Source: Ignavibacteriales bacterium
Lineage (GTDB): Bacteria; Bacteroidota; Ignavibacteria; UBA10030
Reading direction: 5' to 3'
Assembly: GCA_026390585.1 (NCBI GenBank)
Contig: JAPLFP010000184.1
Span: forward strand, 1 to 33,087
Length of the DNA: 33,087 nt
The notes under the pieces were generated by a model that was not told the DNA's origin, searched no databases, and worked only from the letters and a program-made list of their open reading frames with translations. Position 1 is the stretch's first letter, and each line of letters begins with the position of its first letter. The position numbers and the translations under genes were made by a program. Below, piece after piece: positions 3,169-27,541 of the stretch.

Positions 3169-4878
3169 ATGCAAAAGATGCTTTCGATGTTGACACTTGG
3201 AATAATGTTGTCGGCTTCATGGGCGCTTGCCCAGCCAAAGGCTCCCACATTCACGCGCGCCGATACGCTGAGAGGAATGCTTTCGACCGAACGAACCTGC
3301 TATGATCTTACGTACTACCATCTTGATGTGAAGATCAATCCCGCTGACCAGTCGGTTCATGGATCGAATGATATTCATTTCAAAGTTGTGACATTATTCA
3401 ACCGAATGCAGATCGACCTCTTCAAGAACATGGAGATCGAGAAAATCGTTCTTGATGACGGCCCGACCGTACCTTTCACTCGAGAATTCAATGCCGTCTT
3501 CGTCAATCTTCCGAAGACCCTTGACAAGGGCTCTTCGCATCACATCAAGGTTTTCTACGGCGGAATTCCAACAGTGGCGAAGAATCCCCCGTGGGATGGA
3601 GGTCCGACGTGGACAAAGGACTCCTCAGGCAACCCGTGGGTTGTCGTCACGTGTCAGGGGACGGGAGCCAGCCTCTGGTGGCCGAACAAAGACCACCAAG
3701 CCGATGAGCCTGACAGTATGCTCATGAGCATCACTGTGCCGAAGGGCCTCACGGATATTTCGAATGGGCGCCTTCGGTCGACGACTGAGCTTCCAGGCGG
3801 CTGGACTCGCTGCGACTGGTTCATCAGCTATCCGATCAACAACTACTGCGTGACGATCAATGTTGGCAAGTATGCGCATTTCAGCGATACGTACGGAAAG
3901 GACAAACTCACCCTTGACTACTATGTTCTTCCGCAAGACCTCGAACGCGCAAAGAAGACCTTTGGTCAGGTCAAGACAATGATGGAAGCCTTCGAGAAGT
4001 ATTTCGGACCGTATCCGTTCTATCGCGACGGATACAAGTTGGTCGAATGCCCGCACACGGGAATGGAACACCAGAGCGCCGTTGCCTACGGGAATCGTTA
4101 CTTGGGTGGCTATCGGGGGAGAGCCCCTTCAGAAATCGGCTTGAAGTTCGACTTCATCATTATCCACGAAAGCGCGCACGAGTGGTGGGGGAACAGCGTG
4201 ACTGCGAAGGATGTGGCCGACATGTGGATCCATGAAAGCTTCGGAGCATACGCAGAAGCTCTCTATGTGGAGCACGTGTGGGGATACCCGGAAGCGTTGA
4301 GATATATTAACGGGAAGAAACCAAACGTTCGCAACACGGAGCCGATCATCGGAATCTACAACGTCCAGCATGAGGGATCTGGCGACATGTACGACAAAGG
4401 GCAACTCGTTCTGAATACTCTGAGAAGTGTGATGAACAATGACTCGCTCTGGTTCTCCATCGTGAAAGGACTTCAGGAACAATTCCGCTATCAGGCGATC
4501 ACGGCAGAGGATGTTTTCGGTTTTGTGAACCACAAGACGGGCAAAGACTACAACTACTTCTTCAACCAGTACCTGAAGTCAACGAAAATACCCCAGCTGG
4601 ATGTCCGGCTGTCGTTCAAGGCGGATTCAACATACGCTATGTATCGTTGGAATGCAGATGTAGAGGATTTCCGCATGCCGGTAAGAGTGACAACATCTCG
4701 GAACAAGTACGAATTCATCTATCCGACGACGACCTGGCAACGGATGAGCATCGGCAAGATGAAGCCCGAGGAATTCAAGGTTGAAGAGGAGAGATTCTAC
4801 GTCACGCTACGACTTGGTTGGTCGTACATAGACCCGAAACTGCAGATTGAGGGGGGCGGTCGCGGTTCATGGTTTTGA
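3169..4878 (+). CDS. Secreted M1-family zinc metallopeptidase
   Basis: A 569-aa exported aminopeptidase-type gluzincin. An N-terminal signal peptide (MQKMLSMLTLGIMLSASWALA) is followed by an N-terminal beta-domain (about 40-240) and a thermolysin-like catalytic domain. The zinc site is complete: HESAH (H333, H337) and E356 in WIHESFG, which is the HExxH-x18-E spacing. The exopeptidase motif is GMEHQ (298-302), a variant of GAMEN. The transition-state tyrosine is probably Y408 in YDKGQ. The long alpha-helical C-terminal domain of PepN is absent, giving the compact architecture common in environmental bacteria. AAGGAG precedes the ATG. The SET-domain gene starts 15 nt downstream, so co-transcription is likely. 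The peptide substrate is unknown. Confidence 0.93.
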   Translation: MQKMLSMLTLGIMLSASWALAQPKAPTFTRADTLRGMLSTERTCYDLTYYHLDVKINPADQSVHGSNDIHFKVVTLFNRMQIDLFKNMEIEKIVLDDGPTVPFTREFNAVFVNLPKTLDKGSSHHIKVFYGGIPTVAKNPPWDGGPTWTKDSSGNPWVVVTCQGTGASLWWPNKDHQADEPDSMLMSITVPKGLTDISNGRLRSTTELPGGWTRCDWFISYPINNYCVTINVGKYAHFSDTYGKDKLTLDYYVLPQDLERAKKTFGQVKTMMEAFEKYFGPYPFYRDGYKLVECPHTGMEHQSAVAYGNRYLGGYRGRAPSEIGLKFDFIIIHESAHEWWGNSVTAKDVADMWIHESFGAYAEALYVEHVWGYPEALRYINGKKPNVRNTEPIIGIYNVQHEGSGDMYDKGQLVLNTLRSVMNNDSLWFSIVKGLQEQFRYQAITAEDVFGFVNHKTGKDYNYFFNQYLKSTKIPQLDVRLSFKADSTYAMYRWNADVEDFRMPVRVTTSRNKYEFIYPTTTWQRMSIGKMKPEEFKVEEERFYVTLRLGWSYIDPKLQIEGGGRGSWF

Positions 4879-13173: not shown

Positions 13174-15885
13174 CTAAAGACTCTCAAATGTGTAATCTCC
13201 CGACCCAACCTCGAAGACCGCGCAGCCATCCTCGGTTTTTAAATATTTGATGCCTTCGACCAATTTCGCTGACTTGCCACCCTCAAGGACTTTGTCGGGA
13301 TCTGAGGCTGGCACATAGACCAGACTGGTTGTGTTTGCGGGCACTTTCACTTTGATCGTGAATTTTCCTTCTTGCCGTGTCCATTCCACCTTAAGCGCGC
13401 CGTGAATCGATAGGTACTCAGCCTTCGCGTATTTCAGTCTTTCGTTTGGACGTGGGTGTACAACGAAGCGCTTGTAGCCTGCCACGTCGGGGTCAAGGTC
13501 GATTCCAGCGACAAACCGGTAGAGCCATTCACCCACTGAGCCCATGGAGTAATGGTTGAAGGAGTTCATCCCGGGATCCTGAAAACCTTTCTCCGTTGTC
13601 CATCCGTCCCACCGTTCCCAAATTGTTGTCGCACCCTGCGTGATGGGATATCCCCATGACGGAAACGTTGTATTAAAGAGCAGCCGATAGGCGAGGTCAA
13701 GGTTGCCGCTCTCCGTTAGGACTGGATTCAAATACTTCACTCCGATGAAACCGGTCGAAAGGTGATTTTCCCTATCCTGGATGTCTTTCACCAGAAGTTC
13801 TGCTGCCCGGCTTCGCAGGTTCTGAGGCATCAGGTTGAACGCCAATGCGAGGACATACCCGGTTTGCGTTTTGCCCTCGATCTGTCCATCGGAGGCAACG
13901 TAAGTCTTCTGGAAGGCTGCTCTCACTGAATCGAAGAGTGACTTGTAGTATCGTTCCTCCGATGTCTTTCCGATGGCTTTCGCCATATCCGCCATCAGCC
14001 ATGCATCATGAGCCCAAAAGGCAGTGGCAAGAAGATCCTTGGGAGTTTCGGCGTTGATGGAGAGCCAGTCACCGTAATTATTGTTGAGGCGGTTCTTCCG
14101 TATGTGGTCTGGATTCCCTTCTTCCAGATATCGCATCCATCTGGTCATCGCATCAAAGTGCTGTTCGATAATACTCTTGTCACCATAGGTTCGATAGATG
14201 TACCATGGAACAATGACTCCGGCATCCCCCCAACCAGGTGCGCCGTCGGTACCAAGTCCGTCGATGTAGGGGTTGGTATCTTTGAATGCCCCTTGCGGGG
14301 ATTGAGAATCCTCGACGTCAACCATCCATTTCGTCATGAATGAAGCCACGTCCATGTTGAACGAAGCCGTCCGCACAAAGATCTGTGCATCGCCCATCCA
14401 TCCAAGCCGCTCATCGCGCTGTGGACAGTCTGTCGGTATGCTGATGAAATTCCCGCGCTGACTCCAGAGAATGTTGCTGACGAGTTGATTGACCATTGGA
14501 TCCGAACATGCAAACGTGCTACTGATAGGTAGATCCGTGTTGACTGCGCATCCAAGGATTGCATCGCGCTGGGGCTTCTTCGTAAGACCCGTGACCTCCA
14601 CGTATCGGAAGCCATGGAATGTGAAGTGCGGCTGAAGAACTTCTTCATGACCTCCCTGGAGGATATACGTTTCCGTCGCCTTTGCTCTCCTCAGGTTTGC
14701 AGTGTAGATTGTTCCGTCGGGATTCAGTACCTCCGCATGTCGAAGCGTTACCGTCATCCCAGCTTGTCCGCGAACTTTGAGTCGACAGAATCCGGCGAAG
14801 TTCTGACCGAAATCAATTACGAAGGTCCCATTCACTGGTTCTGTCACCTTCTTCGGCTTCAGAACTTGCGTAATGCGAACAGGTTCTGTCCGAAGAGGAA
14901 CGAGGCGAACTTCAGGTGCGGGAAAAATGTCCACCGGTTGCCATTGTGCATCATCGAATCCCGGTTTGTCCCAGCCCCTCATCTCTCTGCGGGCGTCGTA
15001 ACTCTCTCCCATCAGCATGTCGGAATAGAGAATGGGTCCGTACCAACCTTTCCAGGTTGCATCTGTGCCGACGATCTCCTCCGTTCCGTCGTTGTACTCG
15101 ATGTGGAGCTGGAGAAGAGCGCTGGTCTGGTCGCCATAGTTGTTTGGTTTCAGTGCGAAACCGACATATCCCTTGTACCATCCATCACCAATGATGATCC
15201 CCAGGCAGTTGGCCCCTTTCCTAATCTGACTTGTCACGTCGTAGGTGAAGTACTGAAACCGTTTTTTGTAGTCGGACCATTCAGGCGAAAGGAATTCCTT
15301 CCCGACTCGATTCCCATTGATATTGGCGATGAACATTCCGCGTGCGGTGACGTAGGCAAAGGCACGGCGAACAGTCTTGGTCAAGACAAATTCTTTCCTG
15401 ACGTATGGTGCGGGGCGTAGATCGGCTGACGGGTCAGCTTTCAATCCGATCCATTGCGACTTCCAATCGCCTTTGGTCAGCAAGCCCATTCTCCACATCG
15501 CTGGCTTGGAGAAATTCGACGCGTGGTCATGATTGTCCCACACCCGGACTTTCCAGAAACAGGTTGCTCGGGATCCCAAAGGAACGCCCGCGTAGAGGAC
15601 TTGATTTGATTGATCGGTCGTCACTTTTCCGCTCTCCCACAGATCTCCGTGGTTTTGATCAAGGAGCCTCTGTGTGCTGGCTGCAAGAATTTCGTACGCG
15701 GTTTGCATCGTACCGCGTTCTTGTGATTCGATGATCCAACTCAATCGCGGTGTGGCAACATCCACGCTGAGTGGATTGACGAGATACTCGCACCGAAGGG
15801 CGGTTGGCTTGGACTGCGCTGAGGATGTGTTTTGAGAGCCGATGGATGCCATGAGGATCACCAGGATGAAGGTTGTTGCTTTCAT
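13174..15885 (-). CDS. Secreted GH78 alpha-L-rhamnosidase
   Basis: Predicted to release terminal alpha-L-rhamnose from plant or bacterial polysaccharides and glycosides. The frame is open to 15918, but ATG 15885 is chosen because a GAGG lies 8 nt upstream and the product (903 aa) then begins with a signal peptide (MKATTFILVILMASIGSQN). Domain order follows GH78: N-terminal Ig-like and Bac_rhamnosid_N domains (RCEYLVNPLSVDVATPRLSW; MLMGESYDARRE), a concanavalin-like domain (FVIDFGQNFAGF), the alpha6 barrel, and a C-terminal beta-sandwich. The catalytic acid should be the Glu of DCPQRDERLGWMGD (about E492) and the base the Glu of TTIWERWDG (about E757). It ends convergently 83 nt from the permease gene. 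Confidence 0.95.
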   Translation of the reverse strand: MKATTFILVILMASIGSQNTSSAQSKPTALRCEYLVNPLSVDVATPRLSWIIESQERGTMQTAYEILAASTQRLLDQNHGDLWESGKVTTDQSNQVLYAGVPLGSRATCFWKVRVWDNHDHASNFSKPAMWRMGLLTKGDWKSQWIGLKADPSADLRPAPYVRKEFVLTKTVRRAFAYVTARGMFIANINGNRVGKEFLSPEWSDYKKRFQYFTYDVTSQIRKGANCLGIIIGDGWYKGYVGFALKPNNYGDQTSALLQLHIEYNDGTEEIVGTDATWKGWYGPILYSDMLMGESYDARREMRGWDKPGFDDAQWQPVDIFPAPEVRLVPLRTEPVRITQVLKPKKVTEPVNGTFVIDFGQNFAGFCRLKVRGQAGMTVTLRHAEVLNPDGTIYTANLRRAKATETYILQGGHEEVLQPHFTFHGFRYVEVTGLTKKPQRDAILGCAVNTDLPISSTFACSDPMVNQLVSNILWSQRGNFISIPTDCPQRDERLGWMGDAQIFVRTASFNMDVASFMTKWMVDVEDSQSPQGAFKDTNPYIDGLGTDGAPGWGDAGVIVPWYIYRTYGDKSIIEQHFDAMTRWMRYLEEGNPDHIRKNRLNNNYGDWLSINAETPKDLLATAFWAHDAWLMADMAKAIGKTSEERYYKSLFDSVRAAFQKTYVASDGQIEGKTQTGYVLALAFNLMPQNLRSRAAELLVKDIQDRENHLSTGFIGVKYLNPVLTESGNLDLAYRLLFNTTFPSWGYPITQGATTIWERWDGWTTEKGFQDPGMNSFNHYSMGSVGEWLYRFVAGIDLDPDVAGYKRFVVHPRPNERLKYAKAEYLSIHGALKVEWTRQEGKFTIKVKVPANTTSLVYVPASDPDKVLEGGKSAKLVEGIKYLKTEDGCAVFEVGSGDYTFESL

Positions 15886-16139
15886 GTGAAAGCCTCGTTT
15901 CATACGTGACTCCGACACTCCGCCAACCAGGGGAGGGAAATGTCGGAATGCTCAGAAGGAAGGGATGGGATTTGAAGTCCGAACCCATTATACTCAAAGA
16001 AGAAGTCAATGACAATGGCGCGGATGCTGACCATGTCGCTCTCAGTCAGTTGCATTTCAGTAGGTGATGGAATAGATTGAATTCGTGTGTCCCCAAGGAA
16101 TTGACGAGAACAAACTCAGTTTCCGCTTCGGAGGTTCTT
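15886..16139. other. Divergent intergenic region between GH78 and DUF2891 genes
   Basis: About 250 nt containing the GH78 Shine-Dalgarno site and, at 16130-16134, the GGAGG of the DUF2891 gene. No convincing promoter pair, repeat or small gene was found. Confidence 0.35.
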
Positions 16140-17088
16140 ATGGATCATGCTTCTTTCCACAGAATGACTCGGCTGGCTGCTTGGATTTTCTCAGTTCTCG
16201 CGTTTTGGATTGTACCGCAAGCAAGGACAGCCGAGAGCGACACGAGCGCTTCCCGGCAGGAATGGAAACTCACCCCAGCCGTTGCTTCGAACTTTGCTCG
16301 AATAGCACTCCGTTGCGTCTCCAGAGAGTATCCCAACAAGCCCGATCACGTTTTCAATGACGAGAATGATCTTTTGAGCCCAAAGGCGATGCATCCATCT
16401 TTCTACGGATGTTTCGACTGGCATTCCTCGGTTCATGGGCATTGGATGCTGGTCAAAATTCTCCAGCTCTTCCCGGATCTGCCGGAATCAGGTCAAATCA
16501 GGGCTGCACTCGGAGCCAACCTGACCGCCGACAACATCCGGAGAGAAGTCCAATATCTCGATCAACCCGGCCGAAAGTCATTCGAGCGAACATATGGTTG
16601 GGCGTGGCTCCTCAAACTTGCGGAGGAACTGCAAGGCTGGGACGACAATCAAGGTTGGGAGTGGTCCAGGAATCTGGATCCTCTCGTTCAGGCAATCATG
16701 GGACGTTACATGGATTTTCTTCCGAAGCAAACATATCCTATCCGGACGGGCGTGCATCCCAATACGGCCTTCGGGATATCGTTCGCATTGGACTACGCGA
16801 GAGCGGCAAAGAACCAAAAACTGGAACAGGTACTTGTGGAGCGCAGCACGACGTACTATGCTGCCGACAAAGATGCGCCTCTGTCATGGGAACCGGGGGG
16901 TGAAGATTTCTTCTCGCCGAGTCTCATAGAAGCTGATCTGATGAGGATCAATACTTCTGTCATCAGCAAAAAAACACGCTGGTGATGCACTCGCTCATGT
17001 CGCCAGTGGAAACTACGAGGGGGAACACTGGCTCGCATCCTTTGCCGTTTTCATGCTCTCGCAATCCTTTGAATCCGGAAACCGATGA
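16140..17088 (+). pseudogene. DUF2891-family gene with internal deletion and frameshift
   Basis: The start ATG 16140 has GGAGG 5 nt upstream, then a signal-anchor-like segment (AAWIFSVLAFWIVPQARTAE). The first 280 or so residues match DUF2891: HPSFYGCFDWHSSVHGHWML, YGWAWLLKLAEELQGW, RTGVHPNTAFGISFALDYAR, WEPGGEDFFSPSLIEADLMR. The family should continue with about 60-70 more residues before its conserved C-terminus. Here the original frame ends at 16985, while the C-terminal block (GDALAHVASGNYEGEHWLAS, then FAVFMLSQ) appears in the next frame and stops at 17088. An internal deletion not divisible by three therefore joins the two parts. DUF2891 function is unknown. The final TGA overlaps an ATG at 17085, suggesting former coupling to the M55 gene. 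A sequencing error could explain the frameshift but not the missing block. Confidence 0.82.
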
Positions 17089-17126
17089 CTCGCGAACTCA
17101 GTCCAATAGCTCAGGGAGGTACGGCC

Positions 17127-18026
17127 ATGCATCGAATGACTTGTGGAAGTCTTCTTATCCTCTTGATTGTTCTGTTACTTGCATCAAGTGTCACGAACGC
17201 TCAGAAGCTCAAGGTCTATATCTCTGCCGACATGGAGGGAATCACCGGCGTCGTCAGTGCAGATCAGACTGGCGCTGGACCCGACTATGGAATGGCGAGA
17301 AAGTGGATGACGGATGATGTCAATGCAGCAATCGTGGGCGCCTTGGAGGCCGGGGCCACCGAAGTCGTGGTGAATGATTCTCACGGCGATATGAGGAACA
17401 TTCTCCCTGGTGAGCTTAACCCCAATGCTGCGCTCATTTCAGGTTCACCGAAGCCGTTTGGAATGATGCAGGGAATCGATGCGTCATTTGATGCTGTGAT
17501 GTTTGTTGGTTATCACGCTCGAGCAGGGACTGTTGACGCGGTGCTCGACCATACGATCTCCAGCGCTGTTGTGTACTCAATCAGGATAAACGGAATTGAG
17601 ATGCCGGAGCTCGGGATCAACGCACTTGTGGCGGGTTACTACAATGTCCCCGTTGTGATGCTCTCGGGGGACAGGTCGGCATGCGAACAGGCGAAGGAAG
17701 TGCTTGGAGAGAAGACAGTTGTTGCCCAGGTGAAGGAAGCGATTGGGCGCACTGCCGCGAAGAATCTATCGTTTGAAGGCGCACGCAAGCTGATTCGTCA
17801 GCAGGCGAAGTCGGCAATCGAAAAACGCAAAGAGCTCAAACCGTACAAACTGAACGCGCCGTACCGGTTCGAGCTGGCCTACTTTCGTAGTTCGCAGACG
17901 GACAATGCCCTATCTGTTCGGGGGGTCAAGCGAATAAGTCCGAGGGCGGTTCAATTCGAATCAGAAGACTTCATTGTGGGATGCAAACTCCTCCGGGCAT
18001 TGATCTCTTTGGGTCGAGACAATTGA
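17127..18026 (+). CDS. Secreted M55-family D-aminopeptidase (DppA-like)
   Basis: The frame is open from 17085, but ATG 17127 follows AGGGAGGT (17113-17120) by 6 nt and yields a signal peptide (MHRMTCGSLLILLIVLLLAS), total 299 aa. Zinc and catalytic residues of Bacillus DppA are all recognisable: SADMEG (D35, E37), NDSHG (H86), GYHA (H130), DHT (H142, catalytic) and PELGINA (E161), with nearly the same spacing as DppA. M55 enzymes cleave peptides with N-terminal D-amino acids, such as D-Ala-D-Ala from peptidoglycan turnover. DppA itself is cytoplasmic, so an exported form suggests scavenging of external cell-wall peptides. A bidirectional terminator lies 31 nt downstream. Confidence 0.92.
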   Translation: MHRMTCGSLLILLIVLLLASSVTNAQKLKVYISADMEGITGVVSADQTGAGPDYGMARKWMTDDVNAAIVGALEAGATEVVVNDSHGDMRNILPGELNPNAALISGSPKPFGMMQGIDASFDAVMFVGYHARAGTVDAVLDHTISSAVVYSIRINGIEMPELGINALVAGYYNVPVVMLSGDRSACEQAKEVLGEKTVVAQVKEAIGRTAAKNLSFEGARKLIRQQAKSAIEKRKELKPYKLNAPYRFELAYFRSSQTDNALSVRGVKRISPRAVQFESEDFIVGCKLLRALISLGRDN

Positions 18027-18057
18027 TGTCTTCCTGCGTCGGGACCCGGTTTCAAAG

Positions 18058-18087
18058 AAAACGCCCAGCCATTCGGCCGGGCGTTTT
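18058..18087. terminator. Bidirectional rho-independent terminator between M55 and M28 genes
   Basis: AAAACGCCC (18058-18066) pairs perfectly with GGGCGTTTT (18079-18087), with an inner GCC/GGC pair around ATTC. A-runs and T-runs flank the stem on both strands, so it can end both convergent transcripts. Confidence 0.9.
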
Positions 18088-18112
18088 TCGTTTCGGAATT
18101 CCGCAGACGTGA

Positions 18113-19711
18113 CTACTTCTTCAAACCTCCTGTACGTTCTGCATCGACCGGTTCGGGCCAGGTCTGCTGCTTGCCAGTCCGTCGATCGTTGGGCAACACT
18201 CGGTGCTCGCGGGCAACAAACGTGGGATCTTCGCAAGCCTGATAGACCAGGCACGCCGTGAGCGCTACGTTGGTCTCGAGATCATCGAAGACCAGTTTGT
18301 CGTAAGTGTCCCTGTTGGTATGCCACGTGTAGGAGAAATACTCCCACGCGTTTGAGTTAAGTCCGAAGGATGGCGCTCCTCCTGCGACAAAAGAGGCGTG
18401 GTCAGTTCCACCGCGTCCTGGCATTCCGGGGAGGCCGAGGGTAATGCCGCGGGTAAGGTTGTCGGGCGATCTCGCAATCCATCGCGCGAGATGCTCACTG
18501 CCCACAAGAAACCCGGAAGCACTGATGCTGGTAATACGGCCTGTCCCATTGTCCTGATTGAACAGCGCTTGGATCTTTTCGATGATCTCGGGATGGTCTT
18601 TCACGAACGCCTTCGATCCGTTCAATCCCTGCTCCTCGCTGTCCCAATGTCCTACGATGATCGTGCGTTTCGGATTGGGATAAAACTTCTTGAGGATGCG
18701 CATCGTCTCCATCATGATGAGCGTGCCGGTTCCGTTGTCTGTTGCTCCCGAACCCGCTTCCCAAGAATCGAGGTGTGCTGAAAGAACCACATACTCGTCC
18801 GGTTTCTCCGTTCCTTTGATCATGCCGATCGTGTTGAACGCCGGAGATGCTCCAAGGAACTTGCCTTCGGTCTCCACTCTGATGATCGGATTATCTCCAT
18901 ACTCCACCAATCTATAGAGCAAATTGTAGTCCTCCAGGCTGAGCGCAACCACAGGGATCTTGTCGTTCTTCGTGTCGAAGACGCGGTACACGCCCCAGCC
19001 GGATGACCAACTAGAGCTCACGACGCCAACTGCCCCTGCGTTCTCGAGAATATTCGCCAGCGTGTCTGATCGAAATCCGGTTCTTCTGATACGCTTTTGC
19101 CACTCGTCGTTGATCCTTGTGCGGAGCGCTTTCAGACTGTCGAACGATTCTTTCGTGCCGAACTCCTCCCACACCTTGTCGGGTCTTCCTGTCGGCGATG
19201 GAGCAGAGACAAGAACGAATTTGCCCTTCACAGTCGGAAGCCACTTCTGAAATGCCACAGAGTCCGGGACGTCAGCGAGGATGATCAGCCCTGCTGTTGT
19301 GCCCCCCTTTTTTGTTGCGGGGCTCCATGAGAGCATGGTGCCTTCGAGTGTCCTGACACGGGGTTGAAGCAGGTCGATATGCGCCGTACCGCGTTCCCAG
19401 CCTCTCCACTCGCCATATTTTTCATTCTTCGCTTCGATTCCCCACGATGTGTATTTTGCGACTGCCCAATCATTGGCCTTGAGAATGCTCGGGGATCCGA
19501 CGAGCCGGGGTCCGATGACGTCGAGGAGCTCGTGGGCGAGCTTCGGGAGCTGTGAAGACTCCATGGCCTCTTTGTAAATGCCCTTGACGATGGGATCGTC
19601 GGTTGGGAATGTCGGACCCATGTTCTGGAATCCGAACGGCTGGCTCAGAGCGGGAATGCTCAGGAGCGCCACCAGCGAACAGAGGAGCAATGTTCGGAGA
19701 ACGTTGTGCAT
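18113..19711 (-). CDS. Secreted M28-family zinc peptidase
   Basis: A 532-aa exported peptidase. The signal peptide (MHNVLRTLLLCSLVALLSIP) is followed by a PA-like insert (about 110-290) and the M28 catalytic domain. Di-zinc ligands are visible: H313 in SAHLDSW, D325 in GATDNGTG, E360 in DSEEQG (E359 catalytic), D387 in FNQDNGTG and H464 in YTWHTNRDTYDK. This set is that of co-catalytic aminopeptidases and carboxypeptidases such as PGCP. GGAGG sits 4 nt before the ATG. Probable promoter elements lie at 19782-19811. It is divergent from the TlpA-like gene, with two identical palindromes between the two promoters. Probable role: digestion of extracellular peptides. Confidence 0.94.
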   Translation of the reverse strand: MHNVLRTLLLCSLVALLSIPALSQPFGFQNMGPTFPTDDPIVKGIYKEAMESSQLPKLAHELLDVIGPRLVGSPSILKANDWAVAKYTSWGIEAKNEKYGEWRGWERGTAHIDLLQPRVRTLEGTMLSWSPATKKGGTTAGLIILADVPDSVAFQKWLPTVKGKFVLVSAPSPTGRPDKVWEEFGTKESFDSLKALRTRINDEWQKRIRRTGFRSDTLANILENAGAVGVVSSSWSSGWGVYRVFDTKNDKIPVVALSLEDYNLLYRLVEYGDNPIIRVETEGKFLGASPAFNTIGMIKGTEKPDEYVVLSAHLDSWEAGSGATDNGTGTLIMMETMRILKKFYPNPKRTIIVGHWDSEEQGLNGSKAFVKDHPEIIEKIQALFNQDNGTGRITSISASGFLVGSEHLARWIARSPDNLTRGITLGLPGMPGRGGTDHASFVAGGAPSFGLNSNAWEYFSYTWHTNRDTYDKLVFDDLETNVALTACLVYQACEDPTFVAREHRVLPNDRRTGKQQTWPEPVDAERTGGLKK

Positions 19712-25448: not shown

Positions 25449-27431
25449 CTAATCGATTTTTTTGATGTAAGCCGCCCAACCGCCGCCAGGTGCGAGATGG
25501 AGAGCGACTTGGCTGGAACGGTCTACTTGATTTGTTTCCTTCCGGTAATCGCTTGCATTGCGGTCCGCGTTGATGCCATCGCAATAGAAAATCATTTGGT
25601 ACTTTCCGCCATCGAGGAAATCGAGGCTGAGACGAAGATCCCGCGGCGTCCAATTGGTCATGGATCCGATGAACCAGTCGTTTCCTTTCTTCCGTGCAAC
25701 GGTCAGATACTCTCCGATGCGAGCGTTGAGAGTTCTCGTCTGATCCCATGTTGTCGGTACGACCGAGAGAAACTCCATCGCGTCCGGTTGTCGATCATAG
25801 TTCGTTGGGCTGTCACACAGCATCTGGAGTGGACTTTCGTAGACGACATACATCGCGAGCTGATGACAGCGGGTTCCCTGGCTCATCGGTTGAGTGAAGA
25901 TTGGTCGGAAACTCTCCTTCGTTGCATTGATCATCGCCCCTGGAGTAAAGTCCATCGGGCCGGCGAACATGCGTGTGAATGGAAGTGTGACATCATGCTT
26001 TGGTGTGATGTCTGCTGACCATTTGCTGTGTTCCAGTCCCTGAACCCCCTCACGAGTCAGCACATGCGGATAGGTCCGACTGAAACCTGTGGGTTTGTAG
26101 GCACCATGAAAGTCAACAAGGAGGTGGCGCTTCGCCGCCTCGATGGCGACTTTCTCGTACCAGTTCACCATCTTTTGATCGTCACGCTGCATGAAGTCGA
26201 CCTTCACTCCCTTGGATCCCCATTTCTCAAACCGATCGAGCGCTTCGGTCATTCGATCGTCAAGGGCCTTGGATGTCACCCAAAGAATGATCCCAACCTT
26301 TTTCTGTGCCGCGAATGTGAACAACTCATCCATGTTCATGTCAGGATTGATCTGGAAAAGGTCCGAGGGCTTTGACCAGCCCTCATCGAAGATCACGTAC
26401 TCAAGGCCGTACCTCGAAGCGAATTCGATGTAGTGTTTGTAGGTCTCTGTGTTGATGCCGGCTTTGAATGGCACGCCGATCAGGTTGTTAGCATTCCACC
26501 AATCCCAGGCGACCTTCCCCGGCTTTATCCATGAAGTCTCTTTGAGCTTGAGGGGGCTCCCGAGGCGGTAGACGATGTCGTTCTCAATGAGGTCGCCGTC
26601 TTTGTTGGCAATCGCGAACACACGCCATGGGAATTCGCGCACTCCATTCGTTTTGGCAATGTAGTTGGCTGCCTTCGAGACCTTCATCGTTCTGTCCCCG
26701 ACCAGTTGCTCTTCGAGCGGGAAAGGAGGGAACTTCGATCTCAGAACGGGCCGACCCGCTCCGCTTCCGCGCAAATACAGACCTGGATAGTCAAGCAAGT
26801 CCGCTTCAGTGAATGCCACTTTCGGACCGTTTGATTTGACGATCACCGCAGGGATGCAACACATCTGAGTGTCTGCAAGGTCCTTTACTGCAAGAAGTCT
26901 GTAGAGTCGTTCCGAATGGGAGAGGAAGCTTGTTTCTTCAGGAAACCATATCGAATCGGAGGAAGCCAGGATGATGTTGAGCTCCTCACCAAATACTGTG
27001 ATCTCCCCTTTCATTGTTGTGAAGAAACGATATGCCACGCCGTCGTCGTAAGCGCGGAGTCTCAAGCCATAATCACCCTTGAAAGTGATGGTGAGCTCAT
27101 TGTAGATGTCCGGGATCAAGTTCCTTTTTTCCGGAATGATGGGAACAATGCTACTCTCGACGGATTTGGGAGATGCGCTCAAGACCACTGGCCAATCGTC
27201 GAACATATGCTTTTCATCAATGTGCATTTCGATCAGAGATGGAGAGATGATCTCCTGACGGTTGTGGAAAACGGAGATGGCAAGCTTGTTGGCGACAGTT
27301 AACCTCAGCTCGGACTTTCCATCGGGGGACTTGACTTGATAAATTTTGTCTTGAGCGACACCAGCGACGCTGGCCGAGAAGATGAAGATTGCGAATAAGA
27401 ACGAGTTAGCGCGGGATTTCACATGGGCCAT
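25449..27431 (-). CDS. Secreted GH97 alpha-glycosidase, probably retaining clade
   Basis: A 660-aa exported exo-alpha-glycosidase. AAAGGAGG lies 7 nt before the ATG, followed by a signal peptide (FLFAIFIFSASVAGVAQ). The N-terminal beta-super-sandwich (QVKSPDGKSELRLTVANKLA) leads into the catalytic barrel (KVAWDWWNANNLIGVPFKAG; YVIFDEGWSK) and a C-terminal beta-domain. GVKVDFMQRDDQ carries an Asp (D412) at the place expected for the nucleophile of retaining GH97 enzymes such as BtGH97b alpha-galactosidase; E461 in LTREGVQG could be the acid/base. Inverting SusB-type alpha-glucosidases use Glu residues instead. The clade assignment is inferred from memory of the family. It is in an operon with the sugar porter. 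Confidence 0.93.
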   Translation of the reverse strand: MAHVKSRANSFLFAIFIFSASVAGVAQDKIYQVKSPDGKSELRLTVANKLAISVFHNRQEIISPSLIEMHIDEKHMFDDWPVVLSASPKSVESSIVPIIPEKRNLIPDIYNELTITFKGDYGLRLRAYDDGVAYRFFTTMKGEITVFGEELNIILASSDSIWFPEETSFLSHSERLYRLLAVKDLADTQMCCIPAVIVKSNGPKVAFTEADLLDYPGLYLRGSGAGRPVLRSKFPPFPLEEQLVGDRTMKVSKAANYIAKTNGVREFPWRVFAIANKDGDLIENDIVYRLGSPLKLKETSWIKPGKVAWDWWNANNLIGVPFKAGINTETYKHYIEFASRYGLEYVIFDEGWSKPSDLFQINPDMNMDELFTFAAQKKVGIILWVTSKALDDRMTEALDRFEKWGSKGVKVDFMQRDDQKMVNWYEKVAIEAAKRHLLVDFHGAYKPTGFSRTYPHVLTREGVQGLEHSKWSADITPKHDVTLPFTRMFAGPMDFTPGAMINATKESFRPIFTQPMSQGTRCHQLAMYVVYESPLQMLCDSPTNYDRQPDAMEFLSVVPTTWDQTRTLNARIGEYLTVARKKGNDWFIGSMTNWTPRDLRLSLDFLDGGKYQMIFYCDGINADRNASDYRKETNQVDRSSQVALHLAPGGGWAAYIKKID

Positions 27432-27455
27432 GAGAGGGCCTCCTTTAGGCTTGTG

Positions 27456-27468
27456 ACCGATGATCGGT
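27456..27468. promoter_or_regulatory. 13-bp palindrome upstream of GH97
   Basis: ACCGAT-G-ATCGGT is a perfect 6-bp inverted repeat about one base, starting 25 nt before the GH97 start codon. Its position suits an operator for the GH97-transporter operon; the regulator is unknown. Confidence 0.4.
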
Positions 27469-27541
27469 ATTGACCCTGTTCTCTAAGACGAGTTTTGGGA
27501 AAACCACCTTCCTATTTCACGATGATAGTGCTGGAGAGGTC

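Follow-up and report, generated by a model that had tools for sequence, protein, structure and literature searches.

The Campylobacter jejuni protein CJ0554 (Protein Data Bank entries: 8ieu, 8iev) belongs to the same family, DUF2891 (PF11199), as the gene described here, which could be matched to this family over profile positions 2-220 and 294-324. CJ0554 is matched by the structural model of an intact Pyrinomonadaceae homologue at 40% identity with a TM of 0.87-0.95. In C. jejuni, DUF2891 is encoded together with DUF969 and DUF979, the suggested 5-oxoproline transporters (PMC12795558). In other bacteria, the 5-oxoprolinase operon pxpABC (PF03746, PF02682, PF02626) is a recurrent, co-occurring neighbour of DUF2891. 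Pseudogenes arising from gene decay are known from prokaryotes, and those surveyed in PMC522871 resemble the gene described below in being disabled and partly deleted, with a recognisable homologue and a patchy distribution.

The DNA analysed (the window, 33,087 nucleotides) constitutes the entire contig C160 of a draft Ignavibacteriales genome of 4.7 Mb in 379 contigs (G000). It carries a broken DUF2891 gene whose surroundings are given in Table 1. Judged from the draft assembly of one genome, this gene is probably a recent pseudogene produced by one internal deletion (probability about 0.78). Elsewhere in the window, an ORF6N-domain protein (PF10543; 2528-3121, + strand) is encoded between unrelated long open reading frames (25-2454 and 3169-4878), and a type II toxin-antitoxin pair is formed by overlapping genes for a MazE-like antitoxin (PF04014; 30880-31122) and a MazF/PemK-like toxin (PF02452; 31119-31457), both on the + strand. 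The ORF6N domain is known from phages.

Table 1. Features at the broken DUF2891 locus (window coordinates)
Feature	Position	Strand	Remarks
Alpha-L-rhamnosidase gene (anchors the syntenic locus on the left)	13174..15918	-	
5' part of the broken DUF2891 gene	16140..16985	+	ATG 16140, GGAGG just upstream
Deletion junction	16945..16954	+	Exact base uncertain within ~10 nt; ~206 nt fewer than in G001, G004 and G015
DUF2891 C-terminal block, orphaned, +1 frame (LLSSAKKHAGDALAHVASGNYEGEHWLASFAVFMLSQ)	16954..17088	+	No usable start codon
Likely M55 ribosome-binding site (AGGGAGG)	17113..17119	+	SD-ATG layout kept in G005
M55 D-aminopeptidase gene, intact	17127..18026	+	PF04951, E 3.2e-100; likely start 17127, not 17085
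M28 peptidase gene (anchors the syntenic locus on the right)	18113..19711	-	

Two frames and a missing central block

The first frame encodes 281 residues between ATG 16140 and the TGA at 16983-16985, and its N-terminus is signal-peptide-like. Residues 51-269 corresponded to positions 2-220 of the 325 positions of PF11199 (E 7.4e-97, Pfam profile search). This agreed with the initial annotation, which had described the frame as the DUF2891 core, ending at 16985 with unrelated residues past EADLMR; these 12 residues, INTSVISKKTRW, directly precede the TGA. In the +1 frame, the sequence from 16954 matched positions 294-324 (E 3.8e-8), and a genome-wide profile search gave this C-terminal match as positions 291-324 from 16951 (E 4.9e-7). 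The N-terminal and C-terminal parts scored 324.7 and 33.2 bits, respectively, both above the curated cut-off of 25. Alignment to the Pfam profile thus resulted in two matches in two frames and in no full-length DUF2891 (positions 1-325 in a single frame), positions 221 to ~290 being gone and the C-terminus lying in the +1 frame. The +1 frame is open only from 16945, with a stop just upstream of the junction, and ends with the TGA at 17086-17088, which overlaps an ATG at 17085. From 16945 onward it contains no start codon before 17053. Because of the upstream stop and the lack of a start, the C-terminal piece cannot be made alone. The frame and the end at 17088 had been assigned correctly before, but not the beginning of the block at about 16945, since homology resumes at about 16951-16954.

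In the three intact close relatives G001, G004 and G015, EADLMR is separated from the C-terminal LxxSA block by 71 residues (3/3). At the junction of the broken gene 7 nt are left, so that 71 codons minus 7 nt give a net loss of ~206 nt. As this number is not divisible by 3, the C-terminus of the gene is out of frame. The earlier estimate that about 60-70 family residues are absent was consistent with this spacing and with the alignment of 83 intact members from many phyla, all of which (83/83) possess a central block of 65-71 residues. Members naturally without the block were looked for, and none occurred among the 83; a natural short subfamily was rejected on this basis. The left flank shares an AGGA-like match with the right end that the block has in relatives, which is at best a suggestive sign of microhomology at the two ends of the deletion.

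The same locus in congeners

Six genomes of the genus, including G000, were compared. In G001 an intact DUF2891 gene lies alone between the rhamnosidase and M28 genes, and in G004 an intact gene lies beside the same rhamnosidase gene, followed by the contig end. G000 carries the broken gene and the M55 gene between these flanks. In G005 a DUF2891 remnant (L008:6323-6607, contig C270) and M55 occupy the same locus; the remnant, broken by two deletions that differ from the one in G000, lacks the start-codon end and ~750 bp of the middle. G002 and G003, the latter the nearest relative, have neither DUF2891 nor M55 between the flanking genes, and their flanks are clean. Of the loci compared, L009 and L010 hold an intact DUF2891 gene, and L106 and L107 hold none. 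The alignment gap of G003 begins a little beyond the rhamnosidase promoter-like site and reaches the M28 end (window positions 16017 to 18114). Farther along, the sister genome G003, which is collinear apart from these gaps, also lacks a GH97 glycosidase gene (window 25449-27431, - strand); its alignment (L106) jumps there from window position 25465 to 27536.

The intact orthologues of G001 and G004 thus stand at the same locus, and the disabling change is absent from functional members, which all retain the block (83/83). Intact copies in congeners and a different wreck in another bear out the original reading of a deletion plus frameshift. The rhamnosidase tree groups G000 with G003, and G004 with G005, so that the broken and the lost states fall on separate branches; both wrecks and both absences are therefore best explained by separate losses, the gene being dispensable. 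The starting state would have been an intact gene for a secreted DUF2891 protein between the rhamnosidase and M28 peptidase genes, from which one internal deletion of ~206 bp, as the alignment shows, would have shifted the frame as well. Comparison of the assemblies suggests that DUF2891 is dispensable in this genus and has been lost repeatedly, with two species intact, two differently broken and two lacking the gene.

In codon comparisons of DUF2891, with synonymous sites near saturation, dN was 0.147 for G000-G004 versus 0.151 for G001-G004. The dN of the G005 remnant was 0.017-0.026 as compared to 0.042 for the neighbouring rhamnosidase. There is hence no sign of drift in the codons of either wreck, which indicates that the breaks are recent or, less likely, assembly artefacts. 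According to the latter explanation, the population would carry an intact gene, and the assembly would have misjoined two reads or picked a minority deletion variant from a strain mixture. The genome is indeed a draft, the only assembly for its species, both the N-terminal and the C-terminal part of the broken gene look freshly constrained, and the single-base breaks in two other genomes may be such errors. However, neither a second DUF2891 match nor the missing block was found elsewhere in the assembly (4.7 Mb, 379 contigs searched), and a gap of ~206 bp is no homopolymer slip. Moreover, an independently assembled sister species shows different deletions in its DUF2891 gene, and two further species with clean flanks are wholly without it. 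We therefore consider an assembly error or strain mixture unlikely and a recent pseudogene the better explanation.

In the phylum sample, split DUF2891 matches were otherwise observed only in G105 and G114, where nearly all residues are kept and single frameshifts occur (L141:1459-2560 and L142:4529-5526, reverse strand; in G105 around WEPGG). These may be real breaks or sequencing errors. A break rate of DUF2891 above that of PxpA plus M55 was not significant (2/35 versus 0/94, p 0.07).

The M55 gene downstream

The initial annotation suggested that the intact DUF2891 gene was coupled to the M55 gene; the two would then have formed a functional, translationally coupled pair that was uncoupled by the break. 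In G000 and G005 the two genes are neighbours with a common orientation, and the sequence of G000 confirms that the TGA overlaps, as ATGA, an ATG at 17085 in the M55 frame. The distribution of the two families speaks against such a pair. M55 was found near none of 80 other DUF2891 loci, and among 395 genomes of the phylum, with DUF2891 in 36 and M55 over the cut-off in 21, only G000 has both, versus 1.9 expected. Within the genus, M55 is present in 2/6 genomes, both of them with a broken DUF2891 gene. In G001 the intact DUF2891 gene is directly followed by the M28 gene and M55 is absent from the genome; G004 is uninformative on the adjacency, its contig ending at the DUF2891 gene. The intact pair expected in relatives was thus not encountered. 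Furthermore, the M55 start is most likely the ATG at 17127 behind its own, strong ribosome-binding site, as judged from the sequence: a signal-peptide-like stretch follows this ATG, and by frame arithmetic the ATG beside the stop of the G005 remnant is out of the M55 frame. On distribution (0/80 loci; 1/36 genomes) and start site the coupling was rejected, and we regard it as highly improbable.

Content of the lost block and role of the family

In an alignment of 38 sequences, 8 of 45 invariant residues fall in the lost block, some of them in the SDRxD and HLDG motifs, and the deletion removes the invariant segment VSDRxDPKxVHLDGLNLSRAW. The AlphaFold2 model of the intact Pyrinomonadaceae homologue is all helical (pLDDT 89.7), and the block covers its helices 250-260, 270-273 and 284-306 as well as the adjoining ends of 236-247 and 312-329. 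Unsaturated glucuronyl hydrolases, enzymes with an (alpha/alpha)6 barrel, showed weak structural similarity to the model. Along with the invariant segment, the all-helical (alpha/alpha) domain would have lost two to three of its helices, and what remains, a frame of 281 residues, should be unable to form a working protein; on this model, folding and function are both very unlikely for a DUF2891 protein without its central block. A shortened yet working protein, either the first frame itself, which is otherwise stop-free and under normal constraint, or a product joined by recoding, is hardly credible. All of the 83 aligned members have the block, the lost helices and the 8 invariant residues are internal to the fold, the C-terminal piece is without a start codon, and the 68-69 absent residues could not be brought back by recoding.

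As to the intact family, 7 of 80 DUF2891 loci include PxpA (LamB/YcsF) and a carboxyltransferase-like PxpC, and 9 of 80 an Nramp-type transporter. DUF2891 lies within 5-oxoprolinase (pxp) clusters with an Nramp-type transporter at L015, L016, L078, L082, L084, L085 and L091. In the phylum sample, PxpA occurs in 15 of 36 DUF2891 genomes versus 6.7 expected (p 0.001, ignoring shared descent), and in six genomes the coordinates place PxpA and DUF2891 within ~3 kb of each other. In the six genomes of the genus, PxpA is found in all four with an intact or broken DUF2891 gene and in neither of the two without it; G000 has an intact-looking pxpB-pxpC-MFS-pxpA cluster. Neighbourhood and co-occurrence indicate that the intact family most likely acts together with the catabolism of 5-oxoproline (pyroglutamate). 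The correlation within the genus is a small one from six genomes, and a role of DUF2891 in 5-oxoproline use may be taken from these sequences as a reasonable lead. Tentatively, DUF2891 could be an accessory enzyme or a binding protein, so far unnamed, in the use of 5-oxoproline, whose repeated loss is seen in this genus, where the species without the gene also dropped 5-oxoprolinase and those with a broken copy keep it. For this family of unknown function, the association is a hint that can be tested, and it is the sole part that might merit follow-up. The pseudogene matters little beyond correct annotation: automatic gene calling would report a DUF2891 protein of 281 or 302 residues, which is very probably dead.

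In comparison with CJ0554 and the PF11199 profile, the broken copy lacks positions 221 to ~290 and has its C-terminus out of frame, and the version of this genus has a signal-peptide-like N-terminus. In contrast to the pxpABC neighbourhood of other bacteria, the pxp cluster of G000 is located on another contig (C89) and not beside the broken gene. Finally, nothing essential distinguishes the gene from the surveyed pseudogenes (PMC522871), and the sister species provide a small and clean case in which different stages in the loss of one gene can be seen at one locus.
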